Part shown: positions 4,023-43,611 of the stretch, piece after piece
How the letters are laid out: every line of letters starts with the position of its first letter
Numbering within the stretch: position 1 is the first letter of the stretch
Assembly: GCF_900215485.1 (NCBI RefSeq)
Contig: NZ_OCMZ01000002.1
Coordinates: 992,001 to 1,056,000 of the forward strand
DNA: 64,000 nucleotides
DNA from: Nitrosovibrio sp. Nv4
GTDB taxonomy: Bacteria > Pseudomonadota > Gammaproteobacteria > Burkholderiales > Nitrosomonadaceae
Direction: 5' to 3'
Made by a program: the position numbers and the translations under genes
Notes under the pieces: generated by a model
Database searches by the model: none
Told to the model about the DNA's origin: nothing
Seen by the model: only the letters and a program-made list of their open reading frames with translations

Positions 4023-5546
4023 TCAGCGCCTGCGCCCACTACCAAAGATACTACCTAAAACACCCCGAAAGATTTCCCGGCCGACCCGTGAACCAATGGA
4101 GCGAGCCGCACTTTTCGCTGCCGCATCGAGAATGCCCGGCTGATGGCCGCCGCGCGGGCCATTTTTACCGAGCAGCATATCGCCCAGCATATCCATCATG
4201 CCGCTGCTGGCGCCCGTCCTTTCCGACCTGTCCGACCGGGGTACTGCATCGCTCCCGTCATCTTGTTTGAGTTCTGTACGACTTTTGATTATTTCATACG
4301 CCGATTCCCGATCCACTCTCTGCTCGTAATGGCCGAAAATAACGGATGACCGGATGATGGCGCTGCGTTCCGCCTCGGTGATCGGACCTATTCTCGATGC
4401 AGGCGGCAGGATGAATGCTTGCTCGACCATGTCGGGACGGCCTTTCTCGTCCAGTAACGACACGAGAGCTTCACCGACCGAGAGTTCGGTGATTGCTTTT
4501 TCGGTATCGAAAGCGGGGTTGGCGCGCATGGTTTGGGCGGCCGACCTGACTGCTTTCTGGTCGCGCGGGGTAAACGCGCGTAACGCATGCTGCACACGGT
4601 TGCCAAGCTGACCTAAAACACTCTCCGGGATGTCCAGCGGATTCTGAGACACAAAATACACGCCGACGCCCTTTGAGCGTATCAATCTCACCACCTGCTC
4701 TATTTTCTCCAGCAGGGATCTGGGCGCTTCGTTAAACAGGAGATGAGCTTCATCGAAGAAAAATACCAGCTTCGGCTTCTCCGGATCACCTACTTCGGGA
4801 AGATGCTCGAACAGTTCCGACAAGATCCACAGCAGAAACGTCGAATACAGCTTCGGAGAGTTCATCAGCTTGTCCGCTGCCAGGATATTGATCATGCCGC
4901 GACCCCCGGCGCCGGTTTGTATCAGGTCATTGATGTCGAGCATCGATTCGCCGAAGAAGTGATCGCCACCCTGTTGTTCGATCTCCAGCAGCGAGCGCTG
5001 AATTGCACCGATCGAGGCGGCTGAAACGTTGCCATACTGAACCGTGAACTCCTTCGCGTTAGTGCCGACAAACTGCAACATGGTGTGGAGATCTTTCAAG
5101 TCAAGCAGCAATAGCCCGTTATCATCTGCGATTCTGAATACGAGGGTCAGCACGCCCTGTTGTGTGTCGTTAAGGTTGAACAACTGCCCGAGCAACAGCG
5201 GTCCCATATCCGATATGGTTGCGCGCACCGGGTGTCCGGATTTACCGTAAATGTCCCAGAATGTAACCGGGCACGCCATCCATTGCGGCTCATCAAGCTT
5301 GAGTTGCGCAAGCCGCTCCTTCATTTTCGGCGAAACCGCACCTGCAACGGAGAGGCCTGCGAGATCGCCCTTGACGTCAGCCATGAACACGGGCACGCCA
5401 ATCGATGAGAATCGCTCGGCCAATACCTGTAGCGTAACGGTTTTGCCAGTACCGGTCGCCCCGGTGATCAGCCCATGCCGATTGGCAAAATGGGGCAAGA
5501 GCGCGATTGCGCTATCGGAAGGAGCAATTATCAACGGTTCTGGCAT
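4023..5546 (-). CDS. HerA/YjgR-type ATPase (DUF853)
   Basis: 507 residues of a P-loop ATPase of the HerA-FtsK group. Walker A is GATGTGKT near residue 30 and Walker B is [12 protein letters not shown]. The block [43 protein letters not shown] is characteristic of the DUF853/YjgR branch. The tail is basic and glycine-rich, ending GSGRRR. The family is widespread and chromosomal; its cellular role is unclear, although relatives pump or unwind DNA. Confidence 0.9.
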
Positions 5547-5622
5547 GGGTTCGGGATTGGTTTAACAAGACTTCAACGACTTGGCATTATCGGTTTCGCG
5601 ATTAAAAATCCACTCTTTTTGC

Positions 5623-6534
5623 TTACCCGGCCCAGGTGGCAATCTCCAGCAGCAGAAGCAGCGCAAGCCACAAAATCAGGGTGCGCCAAACCAGGCCAAC
5701 GGTACTTTGCAGAAAATCCGCGTCGGCTTCTTCGCCCACGCCTAATTCGGGACGATAGTGCCTGCTGCCGGCCTCTCGCAACGGATCTCCCAGGCAGACT
5801 CCAAGTGCACCCGCACCACTGGCCAGAATGATGCCCTGGTTGCGGTCCATCCAGGATGCCGCTTGTGCACGCCAGCAATAAATCGCATCCTCGAAATTGC
5901 CCGCGATGGCAAAACTCATGGCAGTCGCTCTTGCCGGCAGCCAGTCAATGATCCTGAATGCTTTCACGGCAAAGTCCCCAAATGCGTCCGGACGTGCGCC
6001 CCAGCGCTCATCCAATAGTTCTGCCAGTCGATACAGGACCGCCCCCAACGGTCCGGGCAGTAGTGCGAAACAGATAATAACCCCGAACACATAGCGATGC
6101 GAATAAATCAGGCCCATCTCGATGGTGATTCGCGCAATTTCCTGGCTGCTGAGGTCGTCTGCTTCCACCCCATGCAGCTTCCACAACAGCTTGCGAGCAA
6201 GAAACAAATCCTTGTTCTGCAGCGCATCGCTGATTTCATTGGATGAATAGCTGAACTGGCGAAAACACATGGTGAGATAAAGCGTTATTACGTTCCATGC
6301 CCACGCCAGCAGGGGGCTGAGGCTATACAATAAATAGTAGATCCAGCCGGAGAGCAGCAGTACGGGGATTACGGCGACGACCCAGGCAGCGATGATGTGT
6401 CTGCGCAGGCCGGTGTTGAAATAACCCTCCAGCGAATCGGCATAGGAGAGAAAAAGCGAGACAATACGGTTGCGATCGCTACCGGGACGCCATCGCTCCA
6501 GCAGGAGAACGAAAATCAATGAAAAAAAGGTCAT
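5623..6534 (-). CDS. CobD/CbiB-like integral membrane protein
   Basis: 303 residues with four to five hydrophobic segments (near residues 1-10, 48-80, 140-165 and 285-303). It resembles the CobD/CbiB family, including FRIIDWLPARATAMSFAIAGNFEDAI (compare the typical D-W-x-PAR-x-T motif), but lacks other cobalamin genes around it. Relatives in non-cobalamin contexts are annotated only as CobD/CbiB-family or AmpE-like. The real substrate is unknown. Confidence 0.78.
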   Translation of the reverse strand: MTFFSLIFVLLLERWRPGSDRNRIVSLFLSYADSLEGYFNTGLRRHIIAAWVVAVIPVLLLSGWIYYLLYSLSPLLAWAWNVITLYLTMCFRQFSYSSNEISDALQNKDLFLARKLLWKLHGVEADDLSSQEIARITIEMGLIYSHRYVFGVIICFALLPGPLGAVLYRLAELLDERWGARPDAFGDFAVKAFRIIDWLPARATAMSFAIAGNFEDAIYCWRAQAASWMDRNQGIILASGAGALGVCLGDPLREAGSRHYRPELGVGEEADADFLQSTVGLVWRTLILWLALLLLLEIATWAG

Positions 6535-6587
6535 TGCAAAAAGGCCATTGTAGTCAAGTCAACTCGCTTTCAAATATGCTGGCAACA

Positions 6588-7466
6588 TTATCGCAGCACT
6601 GATTTGAGCACCTTGCCCATCTCGGCCGGATTTCGCGTGACTTTTATCCCGCACTCCTCCAGCACCGCCAGCTTTTCCTGCGCGGTGCCCTTGCCACCCG
6701 AGATGACTGCACCGGCATGCCCCATGCGTCTGCCTGGCGGCGCCGTCAGGCCCGCAATGAAACCCACCAGTGGTTTTTGCATATTATCCCTGACCCAGCG
6801 GGCGCAGTCTTCCTCGTCGGAACCGCCGATTTCGCCTACCATCAAAACGGCATCCGTTTCATCGTCGTCATTGAACAGTTTCATCACATCAAGGTGTTTC
6901 AGGCCATTCACCGGATCACCGCCAATACCTATACAGGTGGACTGCCCCAATCCCTGCCCCATCAATTGCGCCACCGCCTCGTATGTCAATGTTCCAGAGC
7001 GCGACACCACGCCGATGCGGCCCTTCTTATGAATGTAGCCCGGCATGATACCTATCTTGATTTCGTCGGGTGTGATAATGCCCGGACAGTTGGGGCCGAT
7101 CAATCGGGTCTCACGCCCCTGCATCTTGTAGCAGGTTCGCAACATGTCGCGAACCGGGATGCCCTCAGTAATGCAGATTACCAGGTCCAGTTCAGCATCC
7201 ACCGCCTCATCAATCGCGGCAGCAGCAAATGGCGGCGGCACGTAGATTACGGAAACCGTTGCACCGGTCGCCTGCTTTGCCTCCCTGACGGTAGCAAATA
7301 CCGGAATACCTTCGAAGTCCTCGCCCGCTTTTTTCGGATTCACGCCGGCGACAAAACAATCTTTTCCGTAAGCGTAATCACGGCACATCCGAGTATGGAA
7401 CTGCCCGGTCTTGCCGGTAATACCCTGCGTAATCACCCGGGTGTCCCGGTTAATCAGGATGGACAT
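6588..7466 (-). CDS. sucD: Succinyl-CoA ligase, alpha subunit
   Basis: 292 residues from the ATG at 7464-7466, which lies 1 bp past the stop of sucC. It has the CoA-binding Rossmann start ([16 protein letters not shown]) and the phosphohistidine loop [15 protein letters not shown]. It catalyses the substrate-level phosphorylation step of the TCA cycle together with SucC. The open frame upstream of this ATG runs into sucC and is not coding. Confidence 0.97.
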
Positions 7467-37511: not shown

Positions 37512-39058
37512 GCATCGTCGACGTCAACGGCAATCCAATCAATACCGGACTGATCAAGGAAGCGCAAAGCGCCAGGGTTGGAGCCCTTCGACATGAGTTC
37601 GCAGGCCACCCCAGCCGTGGCCTCACCCCCGCCAAACTGGCGCGCATCATGGAATCCGCCGAGCAAGGCGATATCCGCGCCCAGCACGATCTGTTCCTGG
37701 ACATGGAGGAGAAGGACGGCCATATCTACGCCGAGATGAGCAAGCGCAAGCGCGCGCTGCTCACGGTCGATTGGGATATCGTGCCGCCGCGCAACGCCAG
37801 CGCCAGGGAAAAGAAGGCGGCCGCGTACGTGAAGGAGCTGCTCACCGACGTGCCCAATTTCGAGGATGTGATCCTGGATGCGCTCGATGCCATCGGCCAC
37901 GGCTTTGCATGCCAGGAGATCCAATGGCAGATGTTGGGGCGGGAGTGGCTCCCAAAAACGATCAGCCATCGCCCACAAAGCTGGTTTCAGACCGACCGTG
38001 AAACGCGCTCGCAGATCCGGCTGCGCGATATGTCGCTTGATGGAGCCGAGTTGCAGCCGTTCGGCTGGATCACTCATGTGCATAAAGCCAAATCAGGCTT
38101 CCTTTCCCGCGCGGGACTGCACCGTGTGCTGGCCTGGCCCTTCCTGTTCAAAAATTACAGTGTGCGGGATCTGGCCGAGTTCCTCGAAATCTACGGCCTT
38201 CCCCTGCGCCTGGGCACGTATCCGACCGGCAGTAGTGACGATGAGAAAGGCACGTTGCTGCGCGCGGTGACCCAGATCGGCCACGACGCGGCCGGAATTA
38301 TTCCGGAAGGGATGATGATCGATTTCAAGGAAGCCGCAAAGGGCAGCCATGATCCATTCCAGGCGATGATGGACTGGTGCGAGCGCACCCAGAGCAAGGC
38401 TATCCTGGGCGGGACGCTGACCAGCCAAGCTGATGGCAAAAGCAGCACCAATGCCTTGGGACAGGTGCATAACGAGGTGCGGCACGATCTCAAGGTATCG
38501 GATGCCATCCAGCTTGCCGGAACATTAACCCGCGATCTGGTGTATCCGGTGCAGGCGCTTAACGTCGGCGGCGTCGAGGATCTTCGCCGAGCTTCACGCC
38601 TGGTGTTCGATATGCGTGAGCCGGAAGACTTCAAGATGATGGCCGAGTCGCTACCCGGCCTGGTGGACGTGGGCGTGCAGATCCCGGTTAACTGGGTGAG
38701 CGACAAATTGCGCATCCCGCAGCCGGCAGAGGGCGAAGCGGTGCTGGTCAGAGCGCGTCCGGAATCGGGCGGGGCCGGACAACCGTCCACGATGGCTACT
38801 GCCGCATTGTCTGCATTGCCTCCCGATGCGGATGAGTTTGACGTTCTTGCCGATGAGCTGGCCGGCGACTGGGAGCGCGTCACAGATCCTCTAATTGCTC
38901 CGATAATTGCCCTGGCGGCCGAGGTGGATGATTTCGAGGCATTTCAGGCGCGCCTGCCGGAACTGATCCATGACATGGACCCGGCAATACTGGCGGAAAC
39001 CCTGGCGCAGGGACAATTCGCGGCCCGTATCTGGGGCAAGGTCAATGGCGGGAATTGA
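37505..39058 (+). CDS. Portal protein (Mu gp29, DUF935)
   Basis: 517 residues. GLTPAKLARIMESAEQGDIRAQHDLFLDMEEKDGHIYAEMSKRKRAL is the DUF935 signature, with LPLRLGTYP and the GHDPFQAMMDW-like block further in. It forms the ring at the capsid vertex. ATG overlaps the terminase by 7 bases. Confidence 0.95.
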   Translation: MVGIVDVNGNPINTGLIKEAQSARVGALRHEFAGHPSRGLTPAKLARIMESAEQGDIRAQHDLFLDMEEKDGHIYAEMSKRKRALLTVDWDIVPPRNASAREKKAAAYVKELLTDVPNFEDVILDALDAIGHGFACQEIQWQMLGREWLPKTISHRPQSWFQTDRETRSQIRLRDMSLDGAELQPFGWITHVHKAKSGFLSRAGLHRVLAWPFLFKNYSVRDLAEFLEIYGLPLRLGTYPTGSSDDEKGTLLRAVTQIGHDAAGIIPEGMMIDFKEAAKGSHDPFQAMMDWCERTQSKAILGGTLTSQADGKSSTNALGQVHNEVRHDLKVSDAIQLAGTLTRDLVYPVQALNVGGVEDLRRASRLVFDMREPEDFKMMAESLPGLVDVGVQIPVNWVSDKLRIPQPAEGEAVLVRARPESGGAGQPSTMATAALSALPPDADEFDVLADELAGDWERVTDPLIAPIIALAAEVDDFEAFQARLPELIHDMDPAILAETLAQGQFAARIWGKVNGGN

Positions 39059-39836
39059 TCTCAAGGCATTGCCACCGAAAGAGTCGATCGGGTATTTCCG
39101 GCAGAAGGGCTACAAGATTGGTTTTAGCTGGGAAGATGTCTGGCAGCAGGAACACCAGGCGGCCTTCACGGTGGCCAAGGCCATGCAGCTCGACATCCTG
39201 CGCGACATTCGGGCTGGTGTTGATGATGCTCTGGCAAACGGCACAACGTTTGCCGATTTCCGCAGGAACCTGAAACCGCTGCTGGTGCAGAAGGGTTGGT
39301 GGGGCAAGGCGGAAATGACCGATCCGGCCACAGGCGAGGCTAAGGCTGTTCAGCTTGGCAGCACGCGCCGCCTAAAGACGATCTACGATACCAATCTGCG
39401 TACTGCTCACGCAGAGGGCCAGTGGGAGCGCATCCAGGCAAGCAAGGCCAGTTTTCCCTATCTGCAGTACTCCGGCAACAACAGTGAGCACGCGCGTTTG
39501 CAGCATGCGGCGTGGGACGGGCTGATACTGCCCGCCGACGACCCTTTCTACCAGGCGCACATGCCGGTCAAGGCATGGGGTTGCAAATGTCGGGTAATAC
39601 AGATGAGCCAGGGCATGCTCGACCGGCGCGGCTTGAGTGTGGGTGAGACGCCTGTCGTGCCGCAATACACGTACATCAATAAGAGGAGCGGCGAGGTGCA
39701 GAAAATTCCCCAAGGAGTCGATCCTGCGTTTCATTACCCTCCAGGCGGGCGCCAACAGAGCCTGGACAAGATGCTCGCAGAGAAGATCGAGAAACTGCCG
39801 GAGGATTTTCAGGGAAAAATCGATAAAACAAAATAA
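39045..39836 (+). CDS. Head morphogenesis protein (Mu gpF, gp30)
   Basis: 263 residues from ATG 39045, overlapping the portal gene. The MuF domain is clear: LKTIYDTNLRTAHAEGQWERI ... YSGNNSEHARLQHAAWDGLILPADDPFY ... WGCKCRVIQMS. It is shorter than Mu F and ends in a basic helix. About 260 bp of gene-free DNA follows before the inserted cargo gene. Confidence 0.94.
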   Translation: MAGIDLKALPPKESIGYFRQKGYKIGFSWEDVWQQEHQAAFTVAKAMQLDILRDIRAGVDDALANGTTFADFRRNLKPLLVQKGWWGKAEMTDPATGEAKAVQLGSTRRLKTIYDTNLRTAHAEGQWERIQASKASFPYLQYSGNNSEHARLQHAAWDGLILPADDPFYQAHMPVKAWGCKCRVIQMSQGMLDRRGLSVGETPVVPQYTYINKRSGEVQKIPQGVDPAFHYPPGGRQQSLDKMLAEKIEKLPEDFQGKIDKTK

Positions 39837-40095
39837 GCGGTTTTGGAGCCTGGCCCGCCTTAGTGGTGGCATAGGTAGCGGGAATGTCCTGTTACCCGCG
39901 TTAGACCCCCGTTAAATTCGCTTGGAAGGGCATTCAAACCTTCGACGCCGCCTGCCAATCCAAGCTCCTGGCGTGAGCAAACTCAATGGGCAGTACGGTT
40001 CGGCCTAACTGCCATGTCCCCTTTAGACGTAGGTCGCCAGGATTCCACACAAGCGAACCCCAGCCTAGGACCGCAACTCGCGCGCTTGCTCCTGC

Positions 40096-42114
40096 TCAAA
40101 GTATCGGAATCTGGAGGCGCTCGAAGAACGACCTGTTTCGTTTTTTGGCATCACTCAGCACTTTGTCATAGGACAATATTTCAATATAGCAGCCCGAGTG
40201 CTTGTGATACTGAAAATATCCCTCGTTGTCCGGAGTTTTTACGAAGTCTCGACTCTCTGCGATTGCGCGGATGCGGGGGGTAAGACTGCACAGGATATAC
40301 GCGTAGAACGGAATTGCCCCAACGTTGAGAGTCTTTCCATCTCTGTCTTTCGCTAGCCCGTCTTTGATCTTACTGACATAGCGCAGGACTTGGCCGACAG
40401 GATCCTCCTCTCTCAAAGGATATTCATTCCTCTCCGGGCGCTTGAACTCCACGATCACGACCGATTGATAGGGACTCCGCGTGTCTGAGAACGCCCGTGG
40501 CGTATTGAAGACCACCAAGTCCGGTTCATCTCCGCCGTCGACGTTAATCACCTTCAATCGACTAACCGGGAGGTCGGAAGCTAGGTGCCAGTGATACGCC
40601 AATCGTTCGTCAACAACCCATAGGTTCTGCTTTTCAAACTCCACATCGTCCGACGTCTTTTGCATCGGGTAAATAAGTTGGTGCACAAAGTCTTCCCGGG
40701 CGTAGGCACCACTCTCTTGGAGCTTCAAAGCACTGTCGAGCATTTCGAGAATTGTCCGCCTGTGCACAACGTATTTCGCCAGGGCTGCCTTCCCCAATTC
40801 GTTCTCTTCGTGCAAATACTGGTCGTAGAGAGCTTGATATTCGAGGGCGCCCGTAGCGGATTCTGGAGGCGGTACCTTAATTTGCGCAGCCAGTTGTCGG
40901 TGTTCGACCTCGATGTCTTGTTGCGTCTTGTAAAGCTCAACGTCGAGTTGCTCATCAGTAAGATTTGGAGGAATCTTCGCAAGCCGGGCACTGTGGCGCT
41001 CCTGCAGAACGTACCGAAATTGAGGTGCCTTCTGCTGCACAAAGGCCTCAATAGTTTGGCGCTTCTCCTGCTGAAGCGCGGTCGTGTATGGCTCAGCTAT
41101 AGTGCGGAGAACGTTGGCGACTTCAGCGTCCAGCTCGGCCCGTGTCATCTCGCCCGGAAACTCAAGGTCCGCATCCTGTAGGAACATGAAGTCTGTCCGT
41201 TCCGAATTAACTCGAGCGTCGAGATAAGATCCTGAAACATACGCCTTGAAGACAAATGACTGACCATGCTCGTCAGTGAATCTGGCATCGAACTCTGGCA
41301 TGGATTTTGCTGCTTTCCGCTCAAGTACTTCACGCTGGTTCGCGCAATATGAGACAGTGTGGTGTTTCTTGGAACTGGACTGAAACCGCAGGATCTTTGC
41401 CTTAAATCTCTGTGCACGTATGCTGAACTCCACGTCCTGCGCGCGTTGCTTGGCCTCCTCGGCGAACACATAGTTTAGGTTGATCGAGTGACCAGTATTG
41501 TCGTGAAGTGCAATTTGCGGACAGGATCCGCTGACGAAATGGATCAGGAAATGGTCTATTACTTTATGGCCAATGGTCTCAAGCGACTTCGGGAAGTGCT
41601 TCTGATACTCAAGGCGTAGCCCGGTGAGCTTCACGGCGGTCTTGCGGTGGCGTGTTGATGAGGGCTCCACCCGCTCGTTCTCGACGCCATTCGTCGTCTT
41701 TACGAAGTCAAATGTACGCCGCGTCCAAGCTTCACCGTCATGGAAGATACTGTCGATAATCGCCTTATCGAAAACTTTCAGCCAAGTAAAACGTCCTATG
41801 CCCTTGTTGCCACGGGTAGCTTTGCCTGTAGAGTCCGAGAGGAAAAACGCTCGCGCATTGCCGTCGTCGAATCCCCTTCCATTGTCGAAGACGGAGATGT
41901 TTCGAATCGGCGCAATATTGATCTCTTCGGAGCCAGAGCCAGGTAGGGCCGCCTGGGAGAGATCTCGCTCGACATGAACATCGATACGCCCATCAGCGGC
42001 CTTCGCATCTTCGATGGCCTCAATTGAATTAACTAGACATTCGAACAGTGGGAGGAATGGCTGAGTCAGCGGGAGTTGGAGATTATTTACCCGCCCAGCG
42101 ATATCAACCTGCAT
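40096..42114 (-). CDS. GHKL ATPase with C-terminal PD-(D/E)XK-like nuclease, candidate anti-phage cargo
   Basis: 672 residues on the strand opposite to the late genes. ATPase boxes: Glu25/Asn29 in ECLVNSIEAIED, DNGRG at 77-81, GNKGIG at 102-107. The middle is helical/coiled (about 340-480). Near the C terminus Asp532 (DEPDLVVFN) and Glu556-Phe-Lys558 (VVIVEFKRP) form a PD-(D/E)XK nuclease core. A Shine-Dalgarno-like GGGAGGG lies before the ATG. Base use differs from the phage genes around it. Related MutL/MORC-type GHKL proteins occur in restriction and other defence loci. The exact family was not identified; function in immunity is inferred. Confidence 0.82.
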   Translation of the reverse strand: MQVDIAGRVNNLQLPLTQPFLPLFECLVNSIEAIEDAKAADGRIDVHVERDLSQAALPGSGSEEINIAPIRNISVFDNGRGFDDGNARAFFLSDSTGKATRGNKGIGRFTWLKVFDKAIIDSIFHDGEAWTRRTFDFVKTTNGVENERVEPSSTRHRKTAVKLTGLRLEYQKHFPKSLETIGHKVIDHFLIHFVSGSCPQIALHDNTGHSINLNYVFAEEAKQRAQDVEFSIRAQRFKAKILRFQSSSKKHHTVSYCANQREVLERKAAKSMPEFDARFTDEHGQSFVFKAYVSGSYLDARVNSERTDFMFLQDADLEFPGEMTRAELDAEVANVLRTIAEPYTTALQQEKRQTIEAFVQQKAPQFRYVLQERHSARLAKIPPNLTDEQLDVELYKTQQDIEVEHRQLAAQIKVPPPESATGALEYQALYDQYLHEENELGKAALAKYVVHRRTILEMLDSALKLQESGAYAREDFVHQLIYPMQKTSDDVEFEKQNLWVVDERLAYHWHLASDLPVSRLKVINVDGGDEPDLVVFNTPRAFSDTRSPYQSVVIVEFKRPERNEYPLREEDPVGQVLRYVSKIKDGLAKDRDGKTLNVGAIPFYAYILCSLTPRIRAIAESRDFVKTPDNEGYFQYHKHSGCYIEILSYDKVLSDAKKRNRSFFERLQIPIL

Positions 42115-42394
42115 TTGCTTATTCCCTCCCCAGAGCCCTCGGGGGCATCATGGCTATATGTGAGACACGTAGCTTACATGACTTGTGTCGATAACGGATG
42201 AGTTTTGGCATGCATGTCAGATCATAGTGCCCTGTCTGTTCGGTGAACGATCCTATCCAACAGTTGATATAGCAACGCTGCAACTCATTTAGCAATTACG
42301 GCCTGGATTGCTTAAACTTGAATGAATTCGAATGCGCGTAACAATTGATATGGAGTGTGATTAGCATAGGCGAGTGTAAATTCACATCCTTCAA
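42115..42394. other. Gap upstream of the cargo gene
   Basis: About 280 bp between the minus-strand cargo gene and the protease promoter. AT-rich, no gene. It should hold the promoter of the cargo gene, but I see no box strong enough to mark. Confidence 0.5.
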
Positions 42395-42504
42395 TTGACG
42401 ACTCATGTTTTGCAATGCTAATCTGACTTAACTCTTCTCCCGTTTCCGGGAGGAAATGCTTCCGCCTTAACTCCTCTCCCAGCCGCCCGCACAATGGCGG
42501 CATG
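42395..42504 (+). promoter_or_regulatory. Candidate late promoter and leader of the head operon
   Basis: TTGACG (42395-42400), 16 bp, GCTAATCTG (-10 at 42417-42422), a 6-bp hairpin CTCCCG/CGGGAG at 42437-42452, then a 45-bp block (42460-42504) 39/45 identical to that before the amidase gene. It also ends in GCCGCC ... GGCGGCATG. An out-of-frame ATG in the loop gives a 3-codon ORF here. Confidence 0.65.
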
Positions 42505-43611
42505 AATCGCAAGCACAAACTATCTCGTTCCGCAATCGGCATTGCCGTGTGCGCGTTCACCTTGTCCGCGAGCAAGGAAGTGCAGCTGCTGCCTGCCGGA
42601 CAATTCCGCGCCAAGGACGGCCGCCCCAAAGATGTGCCGCACTGGTATATCGATGCGGCGCTGGCCGAAATCATCATTGCCGAAATTGCCAGGCTGAACA
42701 ATTCCCTGGTCATCGACTACGAGCATCAATCCCTGCTGGCCGTCAGCAACGGCCAACCCGCCCCGGCCGCCGCTTGGTTCAAAAAGCTGGAGTGGCGCGA
42801 GGCAGATGGCCTTTACGCTATCGACGTGGAATGGACGCAACGCGCAGCCGCCATGATCGAGGCCAAGGAGTATCTCTACATTTCCCCGGTTTTCAGCTAC
42901 GACAAAAAAACCGGCGCGATCAAATCAATCATTAACGCAGCGCTGACCAATAACCCTGCCCTCGATGGAATGGATGAGGTGACAGCCCAGGCTGCCGCTA
43001 CACGTTTTTCAACTGAAACACAGGAGCTTTTAACTATGAACCTCGATGAGCTGTTGGCCAACATCCGTTGGCTTTTGAACTTGCCGCTCCTGGCAACGCC
43101 GGAAGAGATTGCTGCGGAGCTGCAGAAGGCTGCCGATGTAATCAAAAACGGTAATCCGGAAGCGGCTGCAGCTGGATTCAGCCTGCCGGCACTGCTCGAA
43201 GCGCGGAACACGGAAATCGTTGCACTCAGGGCTGCCGCGCCAGATCCCGCCAAGTATGTGCCGATCGATGCGATGCAGGCCGTGCAAACCGAGCTGGCGA
43301 CGCTGCGGGCAGACGTGAACGGACGCGAGGTGGATGGCCTGGTTACCGCCGCTCTGACCGACGGGCGTTTGTTGCCTCCGCAGGAAGCGTGGGCGCGTGG
43401 GCTGGGCGGCAAGGATATCGCGGCACTGAAAAGCTATCTCGACATCGCGCAACCGGTTGCGGCCCTGAGTGGCACGCAGACCGGCGGCAAGAAACCCGGC
43501 GACAGCGGAGACGGTGAGCAATTAACCGAATCGCAGCTGGCTGTATGCAAGGCGATGGGCGTTTCGGAGGACGACTTCAAGAAAACCCTGCAGGCTCAGC
43601 CGCAAGGCTGA
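42502..43611 (+). CDS. Prohead protease/scaffold precursor (Mu gpI-like)
   Basis: 369 residues (Mu I 361). VQLLPAGQFRAKDGRP, SLVIDYEHQSLLA, AAWFKKLEWREADGLYAIDVEWTQRAAAMI and YLYISPVFSYDK are Mu I-family marks; the DYEHQ histidine is in the likely active site. The C-terminal half is an alanine-rich scaffold. It lies directly downstream of the candidate late promoter. Confidence 0.93.
   Translation: MNRKHKLSRSAIGIAVCAFTLSASKEVQLLPAGQFRAKDGRPKDVPHWYIDAALAEIIIAEIARLNNSLVIDYEHQSLLAVSNGQPAPAAAWFKKLEWREADGLYAIDVEWTQRAAAMIEAKEYLYISPVFSYDKKTGAIKSIINAALTNNPALDGMDEVTAQAAATRFSTETQELLTMNLDELLANIRWLLNLPLLATPEEIAAELQKAADVIKNGNPEAAAAGFSLPALLEARNTEIVALRAAAPDPAKYVPIDAMQAVQTELATLRADVNGREVDGLVTAALTDGRLLPPQEAWARGLGGKDIAALKSYLDIAQPVAALSGTQTGGKKPGDSGDGEQLTESQLAVCKAMGVSEDDFKKTLQAQPQG
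43036..43611 (+). CDS. Internal in-frame scaffold start (Mu gpZ-like)
   Basis: ATG 43036 is in frame with the protease gene and has AGGAG at 43022-43026, nine bases upstream. It would give a 191-residue scaffold product without the protease domain, beginning MNLDELLANIRWLLNLPLL. In Mu, Z is made from an internal start in I in the same way. Confidence 0.65.
   Translation: MNLDELLANIRWLLNLPLLATPEEIAAELQKAADVIKNGNPEAAAAGFSLPALLEARNTEIVALRAAAPDPAKYVPIDAMQAVQTELATLRADVNGREVDGLVTAALTDGRLLPPQEAWARGLGGKDIAALKSYLDIAQPVAALSGTQTGGKKPGDSGDGEQLTESQLAVCKAMGVSEDDFKKTLQAQPQG

Follow-up and report, generated by a model that had tools for sequence, protein, structure and literature searches.

The window analysed here, a stretch of 64,000 nucleotides from Nitrosovibrio sp. 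Nv4, contains the late region of a Mu-like prophage and, within it, one gene on the minus strand that we refer to as the cargo gene. Its reading frame is complete, with 672 codons, an ATG start and the stop codon within its coordinates. PHROGs profiles identify its neighbours as phage late genes (terminase, portal, minor head protein of the Mu F type, head protease and major head protein), confirming the preliminary description, which had placed it between the MuF (gpF) gene and the protease gene. The genes and the spacer next to them are as follows:

39045..39836, plus strand: MuF-type minor head gene, 263 aa, C-terminal part absent
40096..42114, minus strand: cargo gene, putative GHKL ATPase / PD-(D/E)XK nuclease of the paraMORC3 / VcSduA type, 672 aa
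42115..42501, no strand: low-GC (0.470) stretch of 387 bp, upstream of the cargo gene, from its start to the protease gene
42502..43611, plus strand: head maturation protease gene, right neighbour (PHROGs)

The cargo gene was also said to differ from its neighbours in strand and base use, and it does: its GC content is 0.520 and its GC3 0.591, against 0.558-0.607 and 0.628-0.724 for six neighbouring late genes. The low-GC spacer at 42115..42501 may hold its promoter. A promoter scan found no sigma-70-like site in this spacer; the two sites that the promoter scan returned and the single site of the terminator scan did not rise above shuffles, and Rfam gave no match on 39700-42600. A chance reading frame was considered and rejected, because in 49 plasmid records a relative covers at least 80% of the length, and because the motifs are conserved in the alignment described below.

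Lying inside the late region and adjoining head genes, the cargo gene might be taken for a structural or packaging gene of the prophage. We rejected this role and regard it as scarcely credible: the gene is on the opposite strand, its base use is different, and it is absent from relatives that have the adjoining protease gene. Among 101 close relatives the cargo gene occurs in one, namely the window's genome itself. The protease gene occurs in five other genomes of this set, none of which has the cargo gene anywhere. The earlier statement that Mu has no such gene was checked on these five genomes in place of Mu. In addition, six late proteins of the prophage were matched at just 3 of 126 family loci (flanks of up to 10 kb): the window's own contig (L101), L109 (portal and MuF) and L135 (a weak major head match).

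Domains of the encoded protein

An AlphaFold2 model of the cargo protein, built with 73 sequences, has a mean pLDDT of 87.1 and a pTM of 0.71. Together with motifs and profile comparisons it suggests four parts, listed here from the N-terminus:

41605..42114, minus strand: GHKL ATPase domain, residues ~1-170 (boundaries approximate), with E25, N29, DNGRG 77-81 and GNKGIG 102-107; from Foldseek
41200..41604, minus strand: middle domain, residues ~171-305, mixed strands and helices; from the model
40705..41199, minus strand: helical linker, residues ~306-470, with long helices at 325-361, 387-412 and 420-463; from the model
40099..40695, minus strand: nuclease domain, residues ~474-672, with E474, H478, D532 and E556-x-K558; from hhalign and weak Foldseek matches

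The motifs named in the preliminary description (E25/N29, DNGRG, GNKGIG, D532 and E556-x-K558) all lie at the positions given for them; E474, the first acidic residue of the E-D-ExK pattern, was absent from that account. To this we can add how widely the residues are kept. In a script-made alignment of 137 sequences, the window protein included, whose relatives are 25-69% identical to it, E25, N29, D77, G79, G81, G105 and G107 are identical in all 137, as are the nuclease residues E474, H478, D532, E556 and K558; G102 is kept in 136, and R306, at the end of the middle domain, is invariant (137/137). Loss of the DxExK residues across the family was thus not seen in any aligned sequence. Left out before the count were L101 and identical sequences, three partial matches (L028, L145, L148) and two with a stop codon inside the match (L053, L142). 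Also outside it are L002/L102 (57% identical), which has the same residues in two smaller alignments, A1 (18/18) and A2 (73/73), and the plasmid-borne L013, similar to L010 except for its end. Because both active sites are kept across this range of identity, we argue that both activities are selected together, and their joint retention in 137 sequences is a reason to see ATP-controlled cutting as the function of the whole family. Family matches interrupted by a stop codon occur at four loci (L053, L142, L223 and L231), so some copies are probably decaying.

The ATPase assignment is well supported by predicted structure. Foldseek comparison of the model with the PDB gave 450 matches at E<=0.001, and the best 50 of the 450 are GHKL ATPases with probability 1.00, including Hsp90, TRAP1, SMCHD1, gyrase (GyrB) and topoisomerase IV. 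Most alignments extend past the GHKL domain into the next one, where a paraMORC3 protein would have its S5 domain (~420-470 columns), but among the matches listed the TM-scores by query are about 0.25-0.34 and the rmsd values 7-12; the domains are therefore predicted to be arranged differently from those of the GHKL matches. A sequence search of the PDB with the cargo protein led nowhere; of the profile searches of the PDB, one gave nothing and another three chance matches with E above 1. Pfam HATPase_c matched 15 of 18 family members at E<=1 (best 2.1e-6), and the window protein has a sub-threshold match to HATPase_c_3 (E 0.024). MutL, GyrB, Hsp90 and SMCHD1 resemble the cargo protein in ATPase fold and motif types; they have housekeeping or chromatin roles, and we know of no such fused nuclease domain in them. 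At the loci examined, the full-length family was in no case seen in a housekeeping setting.

The nuclease domain is predicted from its residues and by profile. Residues 430-672, modelled alone, gave a pLDDT of 84.0 and a pTM of 0.84, and a Foldseek search with this model gave no match at E<=0.001 (best E 0.014). The first matches, all weak, are McrBC, Shedu, BstEII and NucC, which we take to be PD-(D/E)XK nucleases, with unrelated folds further down. Bacillus cereus Shedu (8ti8) ranks fourth, with E 0.047 and probability 0.85, and its query TM of 0.44 is the highest among the 50 matches listed. In hhalign, the C-terminal part of the family aligned with a profile of seven Shedu proteins (an eighth, L155, gave no frame and is outside the profile) across the PD and ExK stretches with a probability of 91% and a score of 53, compared with 15.4 for the reversed Shedu profile and at most 23.5 for 29 column-shuffled profiles. 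The Pfam Shedu domain SduA_C (PF14082, DUF4263) did not match the window protein, and matched one of 18 family members with E 0.15. Because the profile aligns but the SduA_C cut-off is failed, the domain, judged from sequence, appears Shedu-like, yet it is not a Shedu domain by the Pfam cut-off. The likeness to Shedu SduA (PF14082; BcSduA, 8ti8) covers the ExK nuclease core and the strand-helix end that follows it, by profile, with a weak fold match; the cargo protein differs in having no SduA_C match and a GHKL ATPase in front. A separate, ordinary Shedu SduA gene is also present in this genome, ~55 kb before the window (L151, G000:C2:935978-936511); its protein has 421 aa and matches PF14082 at 3.6e-27.

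Known relatives, carriers and gene neighbourhoods

Proteins of this composition have been described before. According to Iyer, Abhiman and Aravind (2008; PMC2292703), paraMORC3 proteins join a GHKL and S5 module to an extra C-terminal restriction-endonuclease-fold domain with E-D-ExK, and have a wide but sporadic distribution, with a subset that stands alone. The cargo protein likewise begins with a GHKL domain whose ATP-binding motifs are intact and ends with a nuclease domain bearing E-D-ExK, and its family is also widespread yet sporadic, the window copy being a standalone gene; the difference is that this copy sits among the late genes of a Mu-like prophage. Another counterpart, linked by its authors to both paraMORC3 and Shedu (PMC12137116), is VcSduA, a GHKL-type Shedu protein of pandemic Vibrio cholerae reported in 2025 as a single-gene anti-phage system. 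In E. coli it acts against Drexlerviridae, it is also active against vibriophage X29, and either E27A or K557A abolishes defence.

By its published description, VcSduA has the two domains of the cargo protein in the same order, and shares with it a single-gene organization on a mobile element, similar rarity, and equivalent positions of the catalytic Glu and Lys (E27/K557, against E25/K558 in the cargo protein); it differs in its carrier, the VSP-II island, the cargo gene being carried by a prophage. The Glu-Lys spacing of 530 published for VcSduA falls within the family range of 501-558 and was found in 11 of the 137 sequences. Three relatives, from Vibrio albus (L093), Aliagarivorans (L089) and a viral contig (L106), each have 672 aa with E27 and K557; in the plasmid-borne copies from Vibrio fluvialis and Salinivibrio the two residues are E27 and K556. 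From these comparisons the cargo gene looks like a further case of a defence gene type already on record, described in 2008 (paraMORC3) and tested in 2025 (VcSduA). An already catalogued PADLOC 2023 system was considered and rejected, the cargo protein having no match to any PADLOC model.

The family is spread widely, at low frequency. The genome collection gave 534 of 539 pattern matches, in several phyla, of which the best 80 matches were retrieved. Within the order, 4 of 300 genomes (the window's own included) had a match at E below 1e-100, 4 more at 1e-34 to 1e-17, and 2 a weaker one; 14 further genomes had short matches (1e-5 to 1e-3) lying within open frames longer than 1,000 codons, which are probably other ATPases. 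Within the phylum the count at E<=1e-10 was 11 of 398 genomes, the window's own included and some matches split or partial, a frequency similar in size to the published ~1.2% of genomes examined in which a VcSduA homologue was found (PMC12137116).

The carriers include mobile elements. Relatives occur in 58 plasmid records (30 typed conjugative, Agrobacterium Ti plasmids included), 49 of them at a coverage of at least 80%, and at 48 loci in viral contigs, a number that includes the contig of the window itself and a few partial matches. The phage collection contains one relative (L004, phage PJN03, ON245412, 2485-4509), beside an integrase. It is annotated as N-acetylmuramoyl-L-alanine amidase, a label that its sequence does not support. 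Agrobacterium accounts for 17 of the 58 plasmid records, and the Ti plasmid relative L016 (NC_002377, 5884-7914) has a TIR gene and a VapC toxin nearby. The abundance of plasmid carriers, many of them conjugative, is what would be expected of a guard directed mainly at competing plasmids or other mobile DNA instead of phages. We consider such a guard very unlikely, given that relatives are found in viral contigs and a phage too, and that the tested homologue, VcSduA, stops phages (PMC12137116).

To characterize the neighbourhoods, 17 annotated loci (16 plasmids and one phage) were picked by hand from the matches, without a control set; an eighteenth chosen locus had no annotation. Genes named as defence genes lie in the retrieved flanks of 9 of the 17:

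L006: SIR2, XamI restriction and SAVED genes
L007: AbiE
L008: type I restriction and Shedu; the cargo relative follows the type I restriction operon
L009: type I restriction; the cargo relative follows the operon
L010: SAVED/ThiF/nucleotidyltransferase set, CBASS-like
L013: LlaJI restriction
L015: restriction gene overlapping the start of the relative
L016 (Ti plasmid): TIR gene
L017: Abi gene

The other 8 loci have no defence-named gene; some have toxin-antitoxin, HEPN or helicase genes. A controlled comparison points the same way. At 30 of 47 usable genome loci the four closest frames were taken, and these 120 proteins matched 285 PADLOC models at E<=1e-10. A control of equal size, 120 proteins from 30 of 40 regions placed arbitrarily in single-contig genomes belonging to the window's phylum, matched 17 models, none of them restriction-modification. 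The best 25 of the 285 include type I, II and IIG restriction-modification, pAgo, DRT, HerA and Mokosh. Defence genes are clearly enriched near the family; we do not express the enrichment as a factor, because the models are redundant, with many of them open to a match by one protein, and because more phyla are represented in the case loci than in the control. Some models (e.g. mad8) match both sets. Among the Pfam families listed for the 120 case neighbours (25 of 133, this set only) are N6_Mtase (4), phage integrase (4), Eco57I (3), ResIII (2) and HerA (2), along with ordinary families.

The positions of the relatives in L008, L009 and L015, behind or overlapping restriction genes, recall the restriction-accessory role that the 2008 paper suggested for certain standalone paraMORC3 genes (PMC2292703). 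Applied to the window, the cargo protein would be an accessory subunit serving a restriction-modification system whose genes lie elsewhere in the genome. The window copy, however, stands alone among phage genes, and VcSduA works by itself in E. coli (PMC12137116); we hold the accessory role to be highly improbable.

Proposed anti-phage function

We consider it probable that the cargo gene is a single-gene anti-phage effector of the paraMORC3 / VcSduA type, carried by the Mu-like prophage and acting broadly as follows. The protein would dimerise through its GHKL domains, as in the model published for VcSduA, which has a dimer and a clamp (PMC12137116). The middle and helical parts would form a clamp that opens and closes with the binding and hydrolysis of ATP, and a structure made by an incoming phage, once held by the clamp, would be the trigger. 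The C-terminal Shedu-like nuclease domains would then be permitted to cut the incoming phage DNA, and the lysogen would survive.

Several lines of evidence favour defence: both active sites are complete and invariant, the folds are predicted, the contexts of the family are mobile and rich in defence genes, its distribution is patchy, and the gene lies on DNA that is extra to the late region of the nearest prophage. Weighed against it are the missing SduA_C match, the weak Foldseek matches of the nuclease, the 8 of 17 loci with no named defence gene, the lack of a matching PADLOC model, and the lack of a promoter-like site above chance. The preliminary description had proposed a candidate single-gene anti-phage system, with the fused nuclease under the control of a GHKL ATPase, and it named a domain search, a neighbourhood survey and an effect on phages as checks. 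The proposal draws support from the VcSduA experiments on the same architecture (PMC12137116), active-site conservation and the defence neighbourhoods. Of the checks, the first finds a GHKL fold at probability 1.00 and E-D-ExK in 137 of 137 sequences with weak fold matches, and the second, defence genes at 9 of 17 loci and the contrast of 285 with 17 models; on the third, the published homologue does act on phages (same source).

The nuclease might instead, once activated, cut host DNA or RNA, so that the infected cell dies or stops growing. Abortive infection of this kind has a precedent in WonAB, another ATPase-nuclease system, which shuts down translation, but cultures with VcSduA were robustly protected at all phage doses tested, which its authors read as direct restriction (both PMC12137116). 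We judge it distinctly unlikely, although it comes first among the alternatives, followed in falling order by the anti-plasmid guard, service to a restriction system and a role in the virion.

If the anti-phage reading is right, a Mu-like prophage is added to the carriers of a defence family in which, to our knowledge, one member has been tested. Being a single gene, it is tractable for asking what the GHKL switch senses in phage infection. In the literature searched we found no report of this gene type in a Mu-like prophage, which is not proof of absence. For the specialist it is a useful further example and no surprise; the unusual detail is its insertion site, next to a shortened MuF gene.

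The interval behind the MuF gene

Two features delimit the extra DNA by comparison with the nearest related prophage, L166, which comes from the same genus and is apparently the same as IMG/VR locus L165:

39893..39922, no strand: 30-bp element, identical in L165/L166, with flanks 79-81% identical
39923..42415, no strand: stretch without match in L166, 2,493 bp against 71 bp in L166

On both sides of the interval the two prophages are ~79-81% identical. Homology ends at 39745, inside the MuF gene, returns at 39893-39922 and resumes at 42416. The MuF protein has 263 aa in the window, against 422-424 aa in L166, L167 and L168, and the part missing from the window gives a sub-threshold MuF_C match in the relative (E 0.0011, 19.4 bits; cut-off 27.6). 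In other temperate phages, MuF C-terminal domains are reported to be toxin modules (PMC5576092).

The absence of the MuF C-terminal part, the presence in the interval of an opposite-strand gene of anti-phage type, and the 30-bp element alongside suggest a tentative reading, which we think rather unlikely: the interval behind MuF would be an exchange site, at which the phage trades its MuF C-terminal module for a defence gene. The 30-bp element is identical in the related phage that retains the MuF C-terminal domain, and within the viral collection its 18-base core occurs only in the window prophage and this relative. Among direct or inverted repeats that might mark an insertion sequence, we found only short, imperfect pairs. 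The cargo gene marks the stretch behind MuF as a place to look for cargo genes.

In L166, L167 and L168 the MuF gene, a short gap and the protease gene follow each other in this order. L169 has a longer, different MuF protein and ~2.9 kb of unassigned sequence before the protease, and in the 10 kb of L170 no MuF gene was found. Before its protease gene, at 4152-6911, L170 has three minus-strand frames, one of which, by eye only, resembles a serine protease of the ClpP/SppA type.
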